This document shows positions 32,664-39,783 of a stretch of DNA of 64,000 bases, piece after piece; position 1 is the first letter of the stretch; each line of letters starts with the position of its first letter. A program made the translations under genes and the position numbers. The stretch is from NCBI RefSeq assembly GCF_014084105.1, contig NZ_CP048289.1, positions 186,001 through 250,000 of the forward strand. Reading direction: 5' to 3'. The stretch is from Streptacidiphilus sp. P02-A3a (lineage in GTDB: Bacteria > Actinomycetota > Actinomycetes > Streptomycetales > Streptomycetaceae). Under the pieces are notes generated by a model. It was not told the origin of the DNA and made no database searches. It was given only the letters and a program-made list of their open reading frames with translations.

Positions 32664-32903
32664 TCAGTACGAGGCGAGCAGCAGCAGTCCGCCGACGAAG
32701 ACACCCAGGAACAGCCCCGAGGCCAGCAGCACGCCCCCGGCGACGACCAGCGACTCCTGCCACCGGCGCGGCCCCTGGTAGCGGTCCGGCTCGCGCGGCG
32801 CGGACTGCCCGGCGACGGCCGGGCCCGGGCTCCAGGCGGCGCCCCGGTGCGCGTGCCAGAAGCGGCGCAGCAGCCCGAGCCTGACCGGTCGGCCGGTGAT
32901 CAC
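32664..32903 (-). CDS. small membrane protein
   Basis: 79 residues from GTG 32903. The basic N-terminal half (LGLLRRFWHAHRGAAW, DRYQGPRRWQESL) precedes one C-terminal transmembrane helix, VVAGGVLLASGLFLGVFVGG. The frame runs far upstream antisense to the FAD gene, so the start is uncertain. It is divergent from the oxidoreductase gene. Function unknown. Confidence 0.5.
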   Translation of the reverse strand: MITGRPVRLGLLRRFWHAHRGAAWSPGPAVAGQSAPREPDRYQGPRRWQESLVVAGGVLLASGLFLGVFVGGLLLLASY

Positions 32904-33146
32904 GCGATCGCCGGCGGCCCGGGCCGGTCGCGGCGGATTCGACCGGGCGGATGCAGCGGGGGTGTTCGCCGGGTCGAATACGGGACACCGGTGCCCCGTC
33001 GCCGCGCGGATTCCGGCCAGCTTGGGAGATGTGCTGATCAGCCGCCGATCCCGCTGTCTACGGTGAGCCCATGGGCCCGGGGAGCCCGCTGGATCGCAGC
33101 GCCGCCGCTCCCGGGCATCGCGCCCTGGCACCCGGAGGACATCACC

Positions 33147-34544
33147 ATGACCCGAGCGGCGACCTGGGACAGCGCCCTGGTGCTTGGCGGCGGCTACGCG
33201 GGCATGCTCGCCGCGCGGGTGCTGTCCGGACACGTCCGCCGGGTGACGGTCCTGGAGCAGGACACCTCGCCCGGTGCGGCGGCGCGACCCGGCGTCCCGC
33301 AGGCGCACCATCCGCACGCGCTGCTGGCCCGCGGCGCCGAGCAGCTGGAGGAGTTCTTCCCCGGCATCAGGGCCGAACTGCGGTCCCGGGGCTGCCCGGT
33401 GGGGGACTTCGCCGAGGCCGGGCGGATCCTGTTCCCGACCGGCTGGGCGCCGCGGCAGCCGGTCGGGGTCGAGGTGCAGCTGGTCGCGCGCACCGTCCTG
33501 GAGCAGGCGATACGGGAGCGGGTGACCGCGCTGGACGCGGTCACGGTACGGGACGGCGTGCGGGTCGAACGCCTGCTGCTGCGCGACGAGGGGGAGGGCG
33601 TCGGCGTCGTGGTGCGCCCGCGCGGGCCGGACGGCGAGGGCGGCGCCGGTGCCGCCGAAACGATCCTGCGTGCCGACCTGGTGGTGGACGCCACCGGCCG
33701 TGGCAGCAGGCTGCCGCGCTGGCTCACCGACGCGGGCCACCGGCTCCCCGAGAGCCTGGTGGTGGACGCGAAGGCCAGCTACGCCTCCCGGCTGTACACC
33801 CTCAAGGAGGACCCGGAACGCGACTGGAACTCCAGCTACCAGCCCACCATGGCCCCCTCGGTGCCGCGTGGCGCCGTCGCCGTGCGGATCGGCCCCACCG
33901 AGTGGCTGCTCGGCCTGCTCGGCGCGGCCGGGAACACCCCGCCCGACGACGACGAGGGGTTCCGCGCCTACGCCGCCGCCCTGCGCAACCCCGACTTCCT
34001 GCGGATCATCGACGAGGGCGAACCCGTCGGGCCCGTCCACCGCACCCACACCACCGCCAACCGCTGGCACCGCTACCACCGGGTCCGGGACTGGCCGGAT
34101 CGGCTGATCGCGCTGGGTGACTCCGTCTGCGCCTTCAACCCCGTCTACGGCCAGGGCATGACCGTGGCCGCGCTGCAGAGCCGACTGCTGGACAGCAGGC
34201 TCACCCGCCGCGCCGCGAGCGGCCGACTGGACGGCCTGGGCCCGGCGTTCCAGCGCGGGGCAGCCGCCCTGGTCCGCGGCCCCTGGCTGCTCAGCACCGC
34301 CACCGACCGCGCCTGGCAGGACACCGCGATACCGCTGACCAGCCGCATCGCCACCGGCTACCTCGCCGCCCTGACCGCCCGCCTGCCGCACCACCCCGGC
34401 CTGTACCGGCGCTTCGTCCGGACCCTGCAGATGCTGGACAGCCCGGCCTCCCTCGCCTCCCCGGCCGCCCTGGCCCAGCTCGCCTCGATCCCCTCCGTCG
34501 CCCGGCACCAGGCCGCCTGTTCCTGCCCCGCCGCGCACCCCTGA
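33147..34544 (+). CDS. FAD-dependent oxidoreductase (halogenase/epoxidase-like)
   Basis: 465 residues from ATG 33147, with GGAGG at 33134-33138. Rossmann FAD site ALVLGGGYAGMLAARVL near the start, DATGRGSRLPRWL in the middle, and the group motif ALGDSVCAFNPVYGQGMTVA near 330. This pattern occurs in squalene-epoxidase-like and 2-polyprenyl-6-methoxyphenol hydroxylase-like proteins. A C-terminal CSCPAAHP tail has two Cys. Substrate unknown. Confidence 0.85.
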   Translation: MTRAATWDSALVLGGGYAGMLAARVLSGHVRRVTVLEQDTSPGAAARPGVPQAHHPHALLARGAEQLEEFFPGIRAELRSRGCPVGDFAEAGRILFPTGWAPRQPVGVEVQLVARTVLEQAIRERVTALDAVTVRDGVRVERLLLRDEGEGVGVVVRPRGPDGEGGAGAAETILRADLVVDATGRGSRLPRWLTDAGHRLPESLVVDAKASYASRLYTLKEDPERDWNSSYQPTMAPSVPRGAVAVRIGPTEWLLGLLGAAGNTPPDDDEGFRAYAAALRNPDFLRIIDEGEPVGPVHRTHTTANRWHRYHRVRDWPDRLIALGDSVCAFNPVYGQGMTVAALQSRLLDSRLTRRAASGRLDGLGPAFQRGAAALVRGPWLLSTATDRAWQDTAIPLTSRIATGYLAALTARLPHHPGLYRRFVRTLQMLDSPASLASPAALAQLASIPSVARHQAACSCPAAHP

Positions 34545-34844
34545 GCGGGACTCACAGCTTCGAGCGGTAGCGTGGTTCCCGAGCCCACCGGTGGGGGCGC
34601 CGAGGCAGTGGATTCGGCCGCTGACCTGTCGACTTCCCCTGCCTTGACGGAGCGTCAGTACGCAGGCGACCGAATGGATCCGGGGTGCAACTGATCCCCG
34701 TCCGCGTGCGTCTGAAGTCGAGGCAAGCGGTGTGCGCTGGGTCGCCGGGTGCGACGGACGGTGGGCTCCGCGGTGTCGGGGCCTCGCGCGGCCCCATGCC
34801 CGCATGCCACCGGAGCAGCGCTGACGAACAGGGAGTAGATCACC

Positions 34845-36941
34845 ATGCCCCGCCCACATATGTCCGCCGCCGCGTCAGTGATGCGCAGGGGCGTCCGCTC
34901 CAAGGCCGCTATGTCGGTGAGCCTGCTGGGCGCGAGCGTGCTGGCCGGCGCGCTGGTGGCGTCCCTGTGCATTCCCGCCGTCGGCGCCGTCGGTCTGGGC
35001 GCCAAGGCCGCGGCGGACGACTTCAACTCGGTCCCGGACAACCTGGTCCTGCCGACGCTGGCGCAGGAGTCCACCATCTACGACTCCGCCGGGAACGTCA
35101 TCGCCCGGTTCTACCCGCAGGACCGCGTCTCCGAGCCGCTCAGCAAGATCGCGCCGATGATGCAGAACGCGCTGATCGACATCGAGGACCACCGGTTCTA
35201 CCAGCACGGTGCGATCGACCTGGAGGGCACGCTGCGGGCGCTGCTGAAGAACTCCAGCTCCGGGGACGTCTCCCAGGGCGGATCGACGCTGACCCAGCAG
35301 TACGTCAAGAACGTCTTCATCAACGACGCGGGCGACTCCAACTCGACCGGGTTCGCGCAGGCCACCCGGCAGACCGTGGGCCGCAAGATCCAGGAGCTGC
35401 GGTACGCGATCAAGCTGGAGGAGACGCTGTCCAAGCAGCAGATCCTGGACGACTACCTCAACATCACCTACTTCGGTGAACAGGCGTACGGGGTCCAGGC
35501 GGCGGCCGAGCTGTACTTCAGCGTCCCCGCCAGCAAGCTGACCATCCCCCAGGCGGCCATGCTGGCCGGTCTGGAGCAGTCCCCGTCGGCCTACGACCCG
35601 ATCCACAATCCGGCGAACGCGATCATCCGCCGCAACCAGGTGCTCGCCGCGATGGCCACCTACGGCACCATCACCGCGGTCCAGGCGAAGGCCGCCGAGG
35701 CGAGCCCGCTCGACCTGAAGGTGACCTACCCGCAGGCCGGCTGCATCACCGCGGACAAGGGCGAGGGCTTCTTCTGCGACTACGTCGCCCAGCAGATCCT
35801 GGACGACCCGGCCTTCGGGGCGACGGCGGCGGACCGGCAGCAGCTGTGGAACACCGGCGGCCTGAAGATCCACACCACCCTCGACCCCAAGGACCAGGCG
35901 GCCACCAACAAGGCGATCGCCGACCACACGAACCCGGCCGACTCCACGGTCGCGGTCTCGGCGATGGTCCAGCCCGGCACCGGGAACATCCTGGCGATGG
36001 CGCAGAGCCGTCCGTACGGCACCGGGTCCAACCAGACCGAGATCAACTACAACGCCACCGCGGTCCAGGACGGCGGCGAGGGATTCCAGACCGGCTCGGT
36101 CTTCAAGGCGATCACCGCCGCGACGGCGCTGTCCCAGGGCATCCCGCTGAGCTACAAGATCAACGCGGTCGCCACCGGCCCCTACCCGCGGATGACCAAC
36201 TGCTCCGGGGAGGTGCAGCCCGAGGTGGGCGGCGACATGAACGACACCCCGGTCCCCTACGGTGAGATCACCATGGTCCAGGCCATGGCCGCCTCGGTGA
36301 ACACCTACTTCGTGCCGCTGGAGGCGCAGGTCGGCCTCTGCAACGTGGTGCACATGGCCCAGGCCTTCGGCCTCGGCTACCAGGCCGCGCCGGACTCCAA
36401 GTCCCCGAACGGGCTGGCCCCGATCATGCAGGTGCAGTCACTGACCCTGGGCGTCAACGACTACACCCCGCTGCAGATGGCCAACGTCTACGCGACCTTC
36501 GCCGACCAGGGCCGGTACTGCGACACCACCGCGATCACCTCGGTCACCAACGCCTCGGGCAAGAGCCTCGCGGTCCCGTCCGCCGACTGCCACCAGGTGG
36601 TCACCCCGTCGGTGGCGGCCGGGGTCAACACGCTGCTCCACTCCGTGGTCTCGGACGCCGGCGGCACCGGCGCCCCGGACGCCATCAACTGGTCCGACGC
36701 GGGCAAGACCGGCACCACCAACGACGACGACCAGGCCTGGTTCGACGGCTACACCAGCCAGATCGCCGACGCGACCATGATGACCAACCCGAACTACCCC
36801 AGCGACTCCCTCGACGGGGTCGACATCGACGGCACCACCTACCAGCACGCCTACGGCTACCTGCTCCCGGGCCCGATCTGGAAGGAAGCCATGACCGGCG
36901 CGATGTCCGGCCTCCCGAACGAGCCCCTGAACTTCGGCTAG
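34845..36941 (+). CDS. class A penicillin-binding protein
   Basis: 698 residues; GGGAG precedes ATG 34845. A short cytoplasmic tail and one membrane anchor (MSVSLLGASVLAGALVASLC). The GT51 glycosyltransferase domain has IEDHRFYQHGAIDLEG and GGSTLTQQYVKN; the transpeptidase domain has SxxK in TGSVFKAIT, SVN and KTGT (SDAGKTGTTNDD). It polymerises and cross-links peptidoglycan. No PASTA domains. It stands alone, with a 300-bp leader and a hairpin after the stop. Confidence 0.93.
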   Translation: MPRPHMSAAASVMRRGVRSKAAMSVSLLGASVLAGALVASLCIPAVGAVGLGAKAAADDFNSVPDNLVLPTLAQESTIYDSAGNVIARFYPQDRVSEPLSKIAPMMQNALIDIEDHRFYQHGAIDLEGTLRALLKNSSSGDVSQGGSTLTQQYVKNVFINDAGDSNSTGFAQATRQTVGRKIQELRYAIKLEETLSKQQILDDYLNITYFGEQAYGVQAAAELYFSVPASKLTIPQAAMLAGLEQSPSAYDPIHNPANAIIRRNQVLAAMATYGTITAVQAKAAEASPLDLKVTYPQAGCITADKGEGFFCDYVAQQILDDPAFGATAADRQQLWNTGGLKIHTTLDPKDQAATNKAIADHTNPADSTVAVSAMVQPGTGNILAMAQSRPYGTGSNQTEINYNATAVQDGGEGFQTGSVFKAITAATALSQGIPLSYKINAVATGPYPRMTNCSGEVQPEVGGDMNDTPVPYGEITMVQAMAASVNTYFVPLEAQVGLCNVVHMAQAFGLGYQAAPDSKSPNGLAPIMQVQSLTLGVNDYTPLQMANVYATFADQGRYCDTTAITSVTNASGKSLAVPSADCHQVVTPSVAAGVNTLLHSVVSDAGGTGAPDAINWSDAGKTGTTNDDDQAWFDGYTSQIADATMMTNPNYPSDSLDGVDIDGTTYQHAYGYLLPGPIWKEAMTGAMSGLPNEPLNFG

Positions 36942-36963
36942 CCCACCCCCCCGAGCCCACCAC

Positions 36964-36994
36964 CGAGGCCCCGACCACCCCGGCCGGGGCCTCG
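36964..36994. terminator. hairpin between PBP and fic genes
   Basis: CGAGGCCCCG pairs perfectly with 36985-36994 across an 11-base loop. It serves two convergent genes. Confidence 0.6.
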
Positions 36995-37032
36995 CCCCTT
37001 CCCCGCCGCTCGGCCGAGCGAGGACGGATCGG

Positions 37033-37872
37033 TCAGCCGACCAGGACTCGCAGGGCCTCATCGTTGATGAACACTCGGTCGTAGCTTCCCTCGCCGTACT
37101 GGCGGAGCAGGCCCAGGGCGACGAGCTTGCTCACGGCGTTACTGACGGTCTGGTAGGTCACGCCGTACCTCTTGGCAGCCCATGTGATGGTGAGCATGGG
37201 ATACCCGATCAGGCCCTCGGCGATGCGCAGGGTGACGCCGGTGGCGCTGACTTCGAAGAGCTGATCCCGGTACTCGCGTCGCCGTGACTCAAGCCACGGT
37301 GACAGGGCGACGACAGGGTGGGTCAGCTCTCCGGCGCGCATCAGCTGGAGCAGCATCACCAGCCTGCCCAGGCGGCCGTTACCGTCATTGAAGGGGTGCA
37401 GGGTCTCGAACTGGTAGTGCCCCACAGCGATACGCGTCATCAGGTGCATCTCGGGGCCCGCCTGGTTGATCCAGCCCTCCCAGTCGAGAAGCCCGTCCCT
37501 GAGCCGATGGCCGTGTGGGCAGGGGACGAAGCGGGCGTCCTCGACATTGGCGGTCCTGACGCCGATGAAGGCGTCCGTGGTTCGTACCTGCCCGGCCTGG
37601 GTGGTGTGGCTGGAGGTTCCGCTTACGAGGATGCCCTGCAGGTACTCCAGCAGGGCAACTGTGACAGGTCGGTCGTTGATCGCCGTCGTCGCGATTTCCG
37701 CGATCCGGACGTAGTTGCGGACCTCTGCCACGTCGGAGCTGATATCGGATGCGTCCTCGAAGTCGGCTTTGAGGACGTCCTCCATCCCCACACAGGTGCC
37801 CTCGATCGCCGAGGTGCTGCGCGCTTCCACCAGGAACGCGTGAGGCCCCGACCGTTCCCGGTCGGGGCCCAT
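37033..37872 (-). CDS. Fic family protein, 5'-truncated at tRNA-Ser repeat
   Basis: About 279 residues if started at ATG 37872, the first start outside the repeat, which lies inside a terminator hairpin. The Fic core is intact: catalytic HPFNDGNGRLGR (HxFxxGNGRxxR) and the inhibitory motif TSAIEGT of (S/T)xxxE(G/N) type. The C-terminal winged helix reads ITWAAKRYGVTYQTVSNAV. The ~60 residues of the Fic_N region that normally precede the inhibitory helix are replaced by tRNA-Ser sequence. Fic enzymes transfer AMP to Ser, Thr or Tyr of targets. It is probably a pseudogene, possibly still making a shortened protein. The intact inhibitory motif would keep it off. Confidence 0.75.
   Translation of the reverse strand: MGPDRERSGPHAFLVEARSTSAIEGTCVGMEDVLKADFEDASDISSDVAEVRNYVRIAEIATTAINDRPVTVALLEYLQGILVSGTSSHTTQAGQVRTTDAFIGVRTANVEDARFVPCPHGHRLRDGLLDWEGWINQAGPEMHLMTRIAVGHYQFETLHPFNDGNGRLGRLVMLLQLMRAGELTHPVVALSPWLESRRREYRDQLFEVSATGVTLRIAEGLIGYPMLTITWAAKRYGVTYQTVSNAVSKLVALGLLRQYGEGSYDRVFINDEALRVLVG
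37844..37869 (-). terminator. hairpin after partial tRNA-Ser
   Basis: GGCCCCGACCG pairs perfectly with 37859-37869 across TTCC. It sits between the tRNA fragment and fic, so it probably ended the ancestral tRNA transcript. Confidence 0.6.
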
Positions 37873-37876
37873 CGTC

Positions 37877-37945
37877 GTCCTGCTCAGAGCGGTAGCGGTG
37901 GGATTCGAACCCACGGTGAAGTTGCCCCCACACACGCTTTCGAGG
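37877..37945 (-). repeat. att-like repeat, distal copy (3' half of tRNA-Ser(CGA))
   Basis: 69 bases identical to 39684-39752 in the same orientation, 1,807 bp apart. The copy includes the anticodon, variable arm, T-arm and 3' acceptor of tRNA-Ser plus about 13 flanking bases. The 5' tRNA half is absent here, so it is an attachment-site footprint and not a tRNA gene. Confidence 0.9.
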
Positions 37946-38068
37946 TCTGCACCTGGGCTCCAGGGGCAATTCGGCATGATCCACAGCTGCTCATTTCGGT
38001 TCATCACCGCAGGTCGGGCGCGTGCAGGTCAGTGTCGAGGCTGTAGGCGGACCAGCGCGAACCAGGGC

Positions 38069-38091
38069 GGATGAGACTACGGATGAGACTA
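38069..38091. repeat. GGATGAGACTA repeat pair, distal end of islet
   Basis: GGATGAGACTA at 38069-38079 and 38081-38091 (12-base period). The same motif pair recurs near the other end of the islet at 39618-39638. Placement and spacing suit integrase arm-type sites. Confidence 0.55.
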
Positions 38092-38331
38092 GGATCCCCG
38101 ATCATCCGTTGCTGGGTGTCCCTGGGGAGGGCAGAGTCGTCGGGCGTGTCCCTGTCGGCTGCAGTGCCTTCCGTACCGCGCCTCTGAAGACGGCCGGGGC
38201 GGATCGGCGCAGGAGAGGGTTCGGGAAATCATCAAAGTGAGATTGGTGATTTGTTTGGAGATTTGACTGCGACACCGCCCGTGACCTCGGTGCCCACGTC
38301 GGCAACCTGGCGGAGGCCGTGCGGGTGACCA

Positions 38332-38376
38332 CCACGTATCGGAGTGCGGGTGGGTCGCCCGCGCTCCGATACGTGG
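38332..38376. other. long hairpin inside islet
   Basis: CCACGTATCGGAG pairs perfectly with 38364-38376, and an inner GCGGG/CCCGC stem extends it. It lies 55 bases upstream of the RHH gene. It could be a terminator, an operator or a recombination-related structure. Confidence 0.55.
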
Positions 38377-38430
38377 AGGAGCTGATGCACCTTGAGGTAC
38401 TTGGGTACCGTCCTCTGTGAAGGTGTACCG

Positions 38431-38709
38431 ATGACGACTGCAGCACCGAAGACTCCTCGGCAGTCCCCGCTGAAAGTGGATCCGGAAACCGACAAGTTGA
38501 TCAGCCAGGGCGCGCACTTTCTAGGCCTGACCAAGAAGGACCTGGTGGCCGACGCCGTACGGGTCTACCTGGAACAGCGGTGCGAGGACCTGAGGGTCGG
38601 CATGGCTGAAGCACTGCAGGTGATCGACGGCTCGGTCAAGTCGGACATCATGCTGCTGACCGGCCTGACTGCAGAGGAGATAGACGCAGTCGGCGGGATC
38701 GACGAGTAA
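38431..38709 (+). CDS. ribbon-helix-helix-like small protein
   Basis: 92 residues from ATG 38431. SPLKVDPETDKLISQGAHFL starts a strand-helix-helix unit, and LGLTKKDLVADAVRVYLEQR is the second helix typical of RHH antitoxin or regulator folds. The tail is acidic (EEIDAVGGIDE). No toxin gene follows on the same strand. It is an orphan antitoxin or a regulator of the islet. Confidence 0.65.
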   Translation: MTTAAPKTPRQSPLKVDPETDKLISQGAHFLGLTKKDLVADAVRVYLEQRCEDLRVGMAEALQVIDGSVKSDIMLLTGLTAEEIDAVGGIDE

Positions 38710-38765
38710 CAAAGAAGCCAGATACACCTGCCCGCCCCACCATCTGCGGATCATTGGTGCATCGG

Positions 38766-39071
38766 TCAAGCGGCTTCGCCGATGGTGATGTTGAGCGGCT
38801 GCCCGAGTGCGGTGGCGATGCGCAGCAGGGTGCGCGTGGAGGGGAGAGTGAGGCTGTTCTCAAGGCGAGCTATGGCCGGCTGGGTCATCCCAGCCCGGCG
38901 TGCGAGCTCGGACTGGGACCAGCCCAGTTCGGTGCGGCGCTGGTAGATGGAGCGGCCGAGTTCGATGGCCAGGCCGGTTTCGTCGTAGACCTGCTGGGCC
39001 TGGGGGCCGAGATCCGTGTCCGCGCCGGTGAGCTCCTTGGCACGATGCGTCTTCCAACTGGCGTGGTTCAT
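38766..39071 (-). CDS. XRE/HigA-type antitoxin
   Basis: 101 residues from ATG 39071; GGAGG lies 4 bases upstream. A helix-turn-helix of Cro/C1 type: IYQRRTELGWSQSELARRAG, then MTQPAIARLENSLTLPSTRT. Its ATG overlaps the toxin stop (ATGA), giving the toxin-first order of HigBA modules. It probably represses its own promoter. The partner toxin is frameshifted, so the antitoxin may persist alone. Confidence 0.82.
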   Translation of the reverse strand: MNHASWKTHRAKELTGADTDLGPQAQQVYDETGLAIELGRSIYQRRTELGWSQSELARRAGMTQPAIARLENSLTLPSTRTLLRIATALGQPLNITIGEAA

Positions 39072-39446
39072 AGGTCCTCCTCTTTTACGGCGCGGTCGTA
39101 GATCTCGTGGCTCTGTGCCGGCTGATGTCGGAGCTCGCACTCCTGTTGTGCCCTGTGGGCGCGGTCCACCTCGGCGCTCTCGCGCATGCGGGTCTTGTGG
39201 AGCACCGTCAGGAAGACAATCCGCCGTCCTGGGGCGAGCCAGTAGGTGATGCGTTGCTCATTGCAGGGAGAAGCGCAACTCGCGGACCTTGCCGCCCAGA
39301 TGTCGGGTCTGAGGCTCGCCGAGGGTCTCCGCGTGATCAGCCAGGTAGTCGGACAGTTTCATCACGCGCAGGTAGTCATCGGCCGGCAGCGAATGCAGCC
39401 ACACCCGTACCTCGACTTCGACTTCAATCTCGTAGCGCCCGCCCAT
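39068..39446 (-). pseudogene. HigB/RelE-type toxin, frameshifted
   Basis: The first part (MGGRYEIEVEVEVRVWLHSL to KVRELRFSLQ) ends in TGA. In the +1 frame, directly after, EQRITYWLAPGRRIVFLTVL and HKTRMRESAEVDRAHRA complete the toxin, ending at the antitoxin start. In intact relatives LRF..L is followed by xxxRITYW in one frame, so one extra base or a small deletion lies near 39263. The toxin would be an mRNA interferase. Programmed +1 shifting at CAA-TGA-G is possible but there is no strong stimulator. Confidence 0.75.
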
Positions 39447-39617
39447 AGCAAAAATCATATACCTATGTTGCTGCGATGCGCTTGTGCCGCTTGACCCGAA
39501 GATCGCACGCCCGCCCCCGAAGCGTGTTCCTTGGCCGCTGAGTGAGCCGCCTTACGGTGTCTCACCAGCCGTTACTCAGCGCTCGGCGGCCTCGGCGTCC
39601 AAGCCTTCAGCGTTTGT

Positions 39618-39638
39618 GGTGAGACTAAGGATGAGACT
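39618..39638. repeat. GGATGAGACTA-type repeat pair, proximal end of islet
   Basis: GGTGAGACTA (39618-39627) and GGATGAGACT (39629-39638) lie 46 bases inside the proximal att repeat and match the pair at 38069-38091. Confidence 0.55.
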
Positions 39639-39646
39639 GGAACGGC

Positions 39647-39680
39647 CGAAGCCCCGCCGGGTGGACTCGGCGGGGCTTCG
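39647..39680. terminator. 13-bp perfect hairpin after tRNA-Ser(CGA)
   Basis: CGAAGCCCCGCCG pairs with 39668-39680 across 8 bases. It lies just 3' of the tRNA, on the islet side. Confidence 0.65.
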
Positions 39681-39683
39681 TTT

Positions 39684-39752
39684 GTCCTGCTCAGAGCGGT
39701 AGCGGTGGGATTCGAACCCACGGTGAAGTTGCCCCCACACACGCTTTCGAGG
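39684..39752 (-). repeat. att-like repeat, proximal copy (within tRNA-Ser(CGA))
   Basis: Exact 69-base match to 37877-37945. Identity stops two bases past the anticodon toward the tRNA 5' half, the usual crossover limit of tRNA-targeting tyrosine integrases. Confidence 0.9.
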
Positions 39753-39783
39753 CGTGCTCCTTTGGCCGCTCGGACACGCTACC
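39697..39783 (-). tRNA. tRNA-Ser(CGA)
   Basis: 87 nt: acceptor GGTAGCG/CGCTACC, anticodon loop with CGA (reads UCG), a long variable arm and T-arm GGGTTCGAATCCC. CCA is not encoded. It is the attachment target of the islet. Confidence 0.95.

Follow-up and report, generated by a model that had tools for sequence, protein, structure and literature searches.

Elements that have lost their integration and transfer genes and keep both attachment sites, attL and attR, are defined as CIMEs (PMC5704250). One actinomycete example is TR1 of Streptomyces scabiei, a 20-kb CIME at the aviX1 site that carries a biosynthetic cluster (PMC8369830, citing Zhang and Loria 2017). In Dehalococcoides, 15 genomic islands at the ssrA gene are without an integration module (PMC3146451). 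AICEs, such as pSAM2 and those of Frankia, use a tyrosine integrase, occupy the 3′ ends of tRNA genes and form tandem insertions (PMC3218068); that article yielded no mention of tRNASer or of arm sites. In a Streptomyces population, an accretion site holds a remnant bounded by direct repeats beside functional AICEs, and cis-mobilisation of the remnant by its neighbor has been proposed (PMC9513070).

The islet described here spans positions 37877-39752 of the window, the whole stretch of 64,000 nucleotides (186,001-250,000 of the contig) that was analyzed in Streptacidiphilus sp. P02-A3a (genome G000). It belongs to a known kind, since it is CIME-like. Like the elements of PMC5704250, it keeps attL and attR at the 3′ end of a tRNA gene, as exact cores with the motif spacing of a full element, and integration and transfer genes are absent among the islet ORFs tested. 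In the genomes G038 and G043, units of this type stand in tandem with a full element, an arrangement also known for CIMEs (PMC5704250). Unlike the CIMEs described there, however, the islet measures only 1.8 kb, holds a broken TA pair and a partnerless RHH gene, and has no adjacent full element that we could see. As for CIME origin by deletion from an ICE or IME, the islet has arm motifs in common with an integrase-bearing element of a congener (Streptacidiphilus sp. 4-A2, genome G007), and no remnant of that element's genes was found in it. It resembles TR1, whose transfer requires a tandem element, in being of the actinomycete CIME type, but it is far from 20 kb in size and sits at a tRNA gene rather than at aviX1, with no biosynthetic cluster (PMC8369830). 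The locus recalls the Dehalococcoides islands in that units with or without a recombinase are stacked at one RNA gene and bounded by copies of the gene end, whereas those islands use the tmRNA gene, 20-bp repeats and reductive dehalogenase cargo (PMC3146451). A tyrosine integrase, the 3′ end of tRNA genes and tandem insertions are shared with AICEs (PMC3218068), yet the integration, replication and transfer genes (int, rep, tra) of that class were not found in the islet, nor was the integrase that an IME would carry. Finally, direct repeats bound the islet as they do the Streptomyces remnant, although the other elements and cargo are different and no functional neighbor was seen (PMC9513070).

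The features of the islet and its borders are as follows (window positions).

37033-37872, minus strand: Fic-family gene left of the islet and outside it, 5′ end missing (Pfam Fic, 54.3 bits)
37843-37870, minus strand: terminator-like hairpin A (-30.7 kcal/mol, z -4.96)
37877-37945, minus strand: attL core, exact copy of the 3′ part of tRNA-Ser(CGA)
37946-38096, no strand: left arm, common to both G003 islets and weaker in the G007 element
38072-38090, plus strand: arm motif TGAGACTACGGATGAGACT, on the islet side of the left core at a distance of 127 bp
38227-38272, no strand: 46-bp piece near the left end of the islet, 93.5% identical to G003 islet 1
38329-38379, no strand: strong hairpin upstream of the RHH gene (-46.9 kcal/mol, z -8.2)
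38431-38709, plus strand: RHH-like gene (Rv0623-type match of 18.5 bits, below the cut-off of 28.3)
38766-39068, minus strand: HigA-like XRE antitoxin gene, frame open (HTH_3, 55.3 bits)
39068-39458, minus strand: HigB/Gp49-type toxin gene in two frames (domain scan and homologous loci)
39617-39682, no strand: right arm, with arm motif 39620-39638 and hairpin B 39647-39680 (-32.8 kcal/mol, z -4.4)
39684-39752, minus strand: attR core, within the intact tRNA gene
39696-39783, minus strand: tRNA-Ser(CGA), complete (tRNA call and Rfam)

An earlier sequence-only reading of the window had reported an exact 69-bp repeat with the 3′ half of tRNA-Ser(CGA) as its second copy, which direct reading of the sequence confirms: 37877-37945 equals 39684-39752 with no mismatch, and ungapped extension gives 78 nt at 96% identity. 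The right copy belongs to an intact tRNA gene (Rfam tRNA, 53.2 bits), of which it covers the 3′ part, starting in the anticodon loop and ending 12 bp past the tRNA. The two cores are 1,807 bp apart, with 1,738 bp of DNA between them. The exact match does not date the event. The tRNA hardly varies within the genus, but no selection is known to act on the left copy, which can drift, as has the left core of islet 1 in the congener G003 (95.7% identity). The left copy is thus young, or converted, or renewed by recombination. That the repeat is an assembly error would be compatible with there being a single assembly only, but the inner and outer flanks differ between the two copies, both copies lie within one 9.33-Mb contig, and core-bounded units occur at the same tRNA in two congeners. 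We consider such an error extremely improbable.

As for the cargo, ORF and domain scans bear out the sequence-only reading, according to which the islet holds an RHH gene and a HigBA remnant and is devoid of an integrase. Its genes are one of RHH-like type, one for an XRE antitoxin and one of HigB type that is divided between two frames; no integrase domain was found in the four islet ORFs scanned, one of them twice. Both HigB pieces are present in 15 of 16 homologous loci compared (L058 is further broken), and they form one frame in all 15, so the HigB gene of the window is broken. Relatives of the RHH gene in congeners are accompanied by a gene of 252 to 258 aa in four of six loci read; this partner is in pieces at a fifth locus and was not picked by the gene caller at the sixth. 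The islet RHH gene lacks this partner gene seen in its relatives. The arrangement at L032, L033, L035 and L037 is a possible undescribed pair, the longer gene giving no match in Pfam, NCBIfam or PADLOC (one member scanned). The RHH relatives (G001, G011, G013, and others) lie elsewhere in their genomes and match in the gene region only, so that a common origin with the locus was rejected. That the hairpin upstream of the RHH gene belongs to a genus repeat family was likewise rejected. Its stem sequence is found nowhere else in G000 at up to two mismatches, its own two arms apart; otherwise there are four matches, each with two mismatches, in four genomes, and a reversed-pattern control gave six. 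In G003 islet 1, the counterpart of the 46-bp piece is located close to the right end (L063:16563-16607). Outside the islet, the Fic gene is matched by Fic_N from profile position 33 only and by the SoFic model from position 58 of 361, and this truncation (approximately the first 57 SoFic positions) falls at the border between hairpin A and the left core. Hairpin A is the version that also stands beside the core in G001 and G003 and, in the case of the G007 element, outside it.

The ends of the islet go beyond a copied stretch of the tRNA gene. On the inner side of each core stands a tandem motif, TGAGACTNNNGATGAGACT, at a distance of 127 bp from the left core and 46 bp from the right one. This inner motif is not a chance occurrence, since two matches at up to three mismatches compare with none in 100 shuffles. 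A search of 14 genus genomes at up to one mismatch gives four matches, one at each end of the islet and one at each end of the G007 element (the reversed-pattern control gave one match, in G000), and the motif occurs nowhere else in the host genome. The exact motif has 25 matches in 21 of 394 family genomes, with no match listed for the reversed control. A tRNA-Ser(CGA) or (GGA) core lies within 200 bp of 24 of the 25 exact sites (20 of 21 when those of the window and of G007 are excluded), a match to the G007-type integrase, often partial, lies within 1.5 kb of 18, and an intact tRNA-Ser was called at nine. Because of its spacing, its association with tRNA-Ser cores and the nearby integrase matches, the motif is very likely the arm-type site of the integrase. 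The left arm is found in four copies in three of the 394 genomes, the window included: it is 77% (133 bp) and 71% (136 bp) identical in the two G003 islets and 68% in the G007 element. The three genus islets share this arm up to near bp 133 and differ in cargo. The right arm is 87.9% identical to that of the G007 element over 66 bp; Rfam antisense-RNA matches in the region of hairpin B, which at 26.9 and 25.3 bits stay under the gathering threshold, were dismissed as hairpin look-alikes.

The sequence-only reading had also proposed a search for a related full element with an integrase, and such an element exists in Streptacidiphilus sp. 4-A2. It is 41.8 kb long, occupies the same tRNA-Ser(CGA), carries the motif at both ends at core distances identical to those of the islet (127 and 46 bp), and encodes a 425-aa tyrosine integrase near the tRNA. 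It may be of the AICE class. Integrases 64-75% identical to this one are encoded at seven Streptomyces loci, with tRNA-Ser(GGA) in six of the seven stretches and no tRNA in the seventh. At five named loci (70-75% identity), the motif with zero or one mismatch precedes by 34-49 bp the tRNA-Ser(GGA) core, which for this spacing was taken to comprise the tRNA end and a further 15 bp. At a sixth locus, in Streptomyces aurantiacus (L104), the two 71-bp cores are identical, and the motif is found inside both ends, without a mismatch at the right and with one at the left. A third copy with one mismatch is seen inside the S. aurantiacus element (L104:4089) with no tRNA core alongside, an observation that counts against the integrase-placed insertion that we favor below. 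The end structure also bears on whether the 69-bp repeat could be a plain duplication of the tRNA end through homologous or illegitimate recombination, with no integrase involved. Such copying could yield a 69-bp duplicate, but it would not account for arm motifs within both ends spaced as in an integrase-bearing element, nor for the presence of two unlike hairpins, A on the far side and B next to the tRNA. We regard it as very improbable and set it aside on motif spacing, as we do assembly error on the differing flanks, the single contig and the congener units.

If the islet is an insertion, relatives with a single core should show its flanks joined, a comparison suggested by the sequence-only reading. 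This is what was found in G001, where the joined flanks are unbroken over 201 bp (93.5% identity), and in the single-core congeners G002, G004, G006, G008, and G009 (180-187 bp, 90.9-91.8%); for each of these genomes, the alignment to the occupied right end is shorter and begins only within the hairpin. In G013 and G007, the occupied form matches better than the joined form, and in G005, G010, G011, and G012 the comparison does not discriminate. The best match of all to the joined flanks, in G003 (95.9% over 193 bp), was rejected as an empty site since it is the right end of islet 2. Half-motifs stand beside hairpin A and the tRNA in some single-core congeners, G001 among them, so that some of these sites may be relics of attR instead of virgin targets. 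The islet itself was seen at this locus in none of 13 congeners (best three matches per genome), where the matches consist of arm pieces in G003 and G007 and of the hairpin in G013; the case of a repeat and genes fixed in all relatives, which would have spoken against the sequence-only reading, is thus not what we see. In G013 (L074:19091-19238), hairpin B and two eroded higA pieces (39 bp at 85% and 52 bp at 81%) lie beside tRNA-Ser(CGA), with neither arm motif nor second core by the hairpin, and these pieces make it likely that this tRNA once held a related insert. On a larger scale, genes up to 32,312 are syntenic and none of 32,847-37,872 is matched in 11 of 17 relatives compared (E up to 1e-20), and the variable segment 32312-39696 between the syntenic block and the tRNA is likely an integration hotspot.

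Together, the identical cores, the equal motif spacing, the finding of no integrase gene inside, the contiguous flanks in single-core relatives and the broken toxin gene are best explained by site-specific integration, the layout recognized by the sequence-only reading and now supported by the joined flanks and the matching full element. It is highly probable, in our view, that 37877-39752 is an insert with no detected integrase, bounded by cores and motifs, that was likely placed by a tyrosine integrase of the 4-A2 type from another element. A G007-type integrase supplied in this way would recombine the tRNA-end core of the unit with the chromosomal core, and the insertion would leave the tRNA intact and give it a new downstream hairpin. 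The islet would then be a very small cis-mobilizable (CIME-like) passenger. Against this reading count the absence of a second core at this tRNA in 11 of 13 congeners and the left arm, only 68% alike between the islet and the G007 element. The G013 site, with its hairpin B and its better fit to the occupied form, the half-motifs by hairpin A in G001 and others, and the G003 match to the joined flanks that proved to be an islet end also speak against it.

A narrower form of this reading is that the islet is a decayed remnant, a G007-type element that underwent internal deletion, kept or acquired a TA pair, and is now fixed and inert with its cores gene-converted. The broken HigB, the RHH gene without the partner known from relatives, the truncated Fic gene adjoining, the remains of higA beside this tRNA in G013 and the 46-bp piece in common with G003 islet 1 all fit such decay. 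On the other hand, a tblastn comparison of the islet with the ORFs predicted in the 42-kb G007 element, integrase included, gave a single HTH-type match (41% over 66 residues); the motif spacing is kept to the base; and core conversion alone would leave the arms unconserved. We hold decay to be a real possibility, albeit not the one on which we would settle. Two terms of the sequence-only reading need qualification. "Lost its recombinase" is right about a recombinase-less layout, but the loss itself is only one possibility, since no integrase remnant was found in the islet, which may never have carried an integrase; "ghost islet" suits the cargo, with its broken HigB and partnerless RHH gene, and not the ends, which are conserved.

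The islet is one of several bounded units at this tRNA. A second core near tRNA-Ser(CGA) on the same contig was found in 8 of 61 genomes, which together hold 14 bounded units. We left out partial cores on contigs other than that of the tRNA (G020, G033, and G039; G046 C50 and G040 C66), because their linkage to the tRNA cannot be judged, as well as weak matches that resemble other tRNA genes by span or are at least 96 kb away (e.g., G028 and G045). Four units (G007, G014, G038, and G043; 16.2 to 50.7 kb) have an integrase. The other ten (1.8 to 7.3 kb) have none detected: one each in G000, G023, and G046, two each in G003 and G043, and three in G038. No Phage_integrase was found inside these ten among the matches listed, and the main G003 ORFs were scanned too. 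Six of the ten carry toxin, TA or defense genes. The contents of the units other than the window islet are as follows.

G003 islet 1, 7.1 kb: ABC transporter and two-component genes
G003 islet 2, 1.9 kb: AbiEi/AbiEii pair
G043 units: T7SS-signal Rhs protein; T7SS-signal protein with an RNase A-type C-terminus by a CdiI immunity gene (Pfam)
G046 unit: T7SS-signal Rhs protein (Pfam)
G038 units: L,D-transpeptidase; cell-wall-binding protein (Pfam)
G038, further: Rhs-like gene and transposase-like ORF (reading and DNA match only)
G023 unit: dehydrogenase, TetR regulator, and transposase and glycosyltransferase fragments

The two G003 islets are in tandem at the tRNA (L063:9797-18853). They hold half-copies of the arm motif, which counts against the placed-insert reading; the full tandem motif is absent left of both islets and right of islet 2, and has two mismatches right of islet 1. 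Six integrase-less units are found in G038, G043, and G046 (L090-L095), stacked beyond an integrase-bearing element in G038 and G043. Their arm-like repeats differ in sequence from those of the islet, which suggests that another integrase lineage likely handles them.

These units bear on a second narrower form of the placed-insert reading, in which the islet was born small, as arms plus one cargo system that moved wholly in trans and never had an integrase. This would explain why the left arm is constant and the cargo differs between the window islet and G003 islets 1 and 2, and why ten of 14 units at the tRNA, all ten of at most 7.3 kb, have no detected integrase. Moreover, AbiE-like DNA of G003 islet 2 is present in 20 other family genomes, with the listed matches within islet positions 217-1744, outside the common arms. 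The AbiE islet was considered as a unit present elsewhere and rejected, since 21 of 394 genomes match, G003 included (E up to 1e-30, best two per genome), and among the matches listed the arms are reached only in G003. Against a small origin, no unit was found to recur in identical form at a second place, and stacking beside an integrase-bearing element is equally expected of decayed elements. A small origin is conceivable, although we think it rather unlikely.

If a 4-A2-type integrase placed the islet, the present host seems poorly equipped to move it. The closest host integrases to that of G007 are at most 62% identical to it. One of these is located at tRNA-Ser(GGA), with no motif within four mismatches in the surrounding 1.8 kb. 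Since the host integrases are this distant, the recognized target is tRNA-Ser(GGA) and the genome has no other arm motif at up to one mismatch, we predict that the unit stays immobile in this host as long as no cognate element enters it. A motif-like site with four mismatches was seen near the other 62% integrase (L109), and it counts against the placed-insert reading. Elsewhere in the host (G000:C1 4554789-4933964), three integrase pairs are mirrored exactly, with coordinate sums all equal to 9,488,753. The pairs mark an inverted repeat that extends for at least about 189 kb on either side of 4.744 Mb and may represent chromosome ends that have been joined, or else an artifact of assembly.

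While the islet itself falls into an established class, the collection of small units with toxin and defense genes at a single tRNA could go beyond what is known. No precedent for the islet or for a tRNA-Ser cassette array was found among the best-ranked literature matches listed. It is conceivable, if doubtful, that the tRNA-Ser genes of Streptomycetales anchor a cassette system. In it, small integrase-less units, each bringing one toxin, TA, defense or transporter system between tRNA-end cores with their arm sites, would be exchanged in trans by whichever tRNA-Ser integrases pass through. To such a system would belong the window islet, both G003 islets (AbiE and ABC transporter), and the islets with Rhs/CdiA-type toxins in Catenulisporaceae-type genomes. 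This reading likens the swapping of tRNA-Ser units to the shuffling of integron gene cassettes, a likeness in outline only (cargo between recombination sites).

For Streptacidiphilus sp. P02-A3a, the islet represents a minimal CIME-like unit made of cores, arms and one TA remnant. Since a full element with the same motif and spacing exists in a congener, mobilization in trans or in cis is directly testable. If the cassette reading were true, the ends of tRNA-Ser genes in these actinomycetes would be a site of toxin and defense gene shuffling that integrase searches miss.
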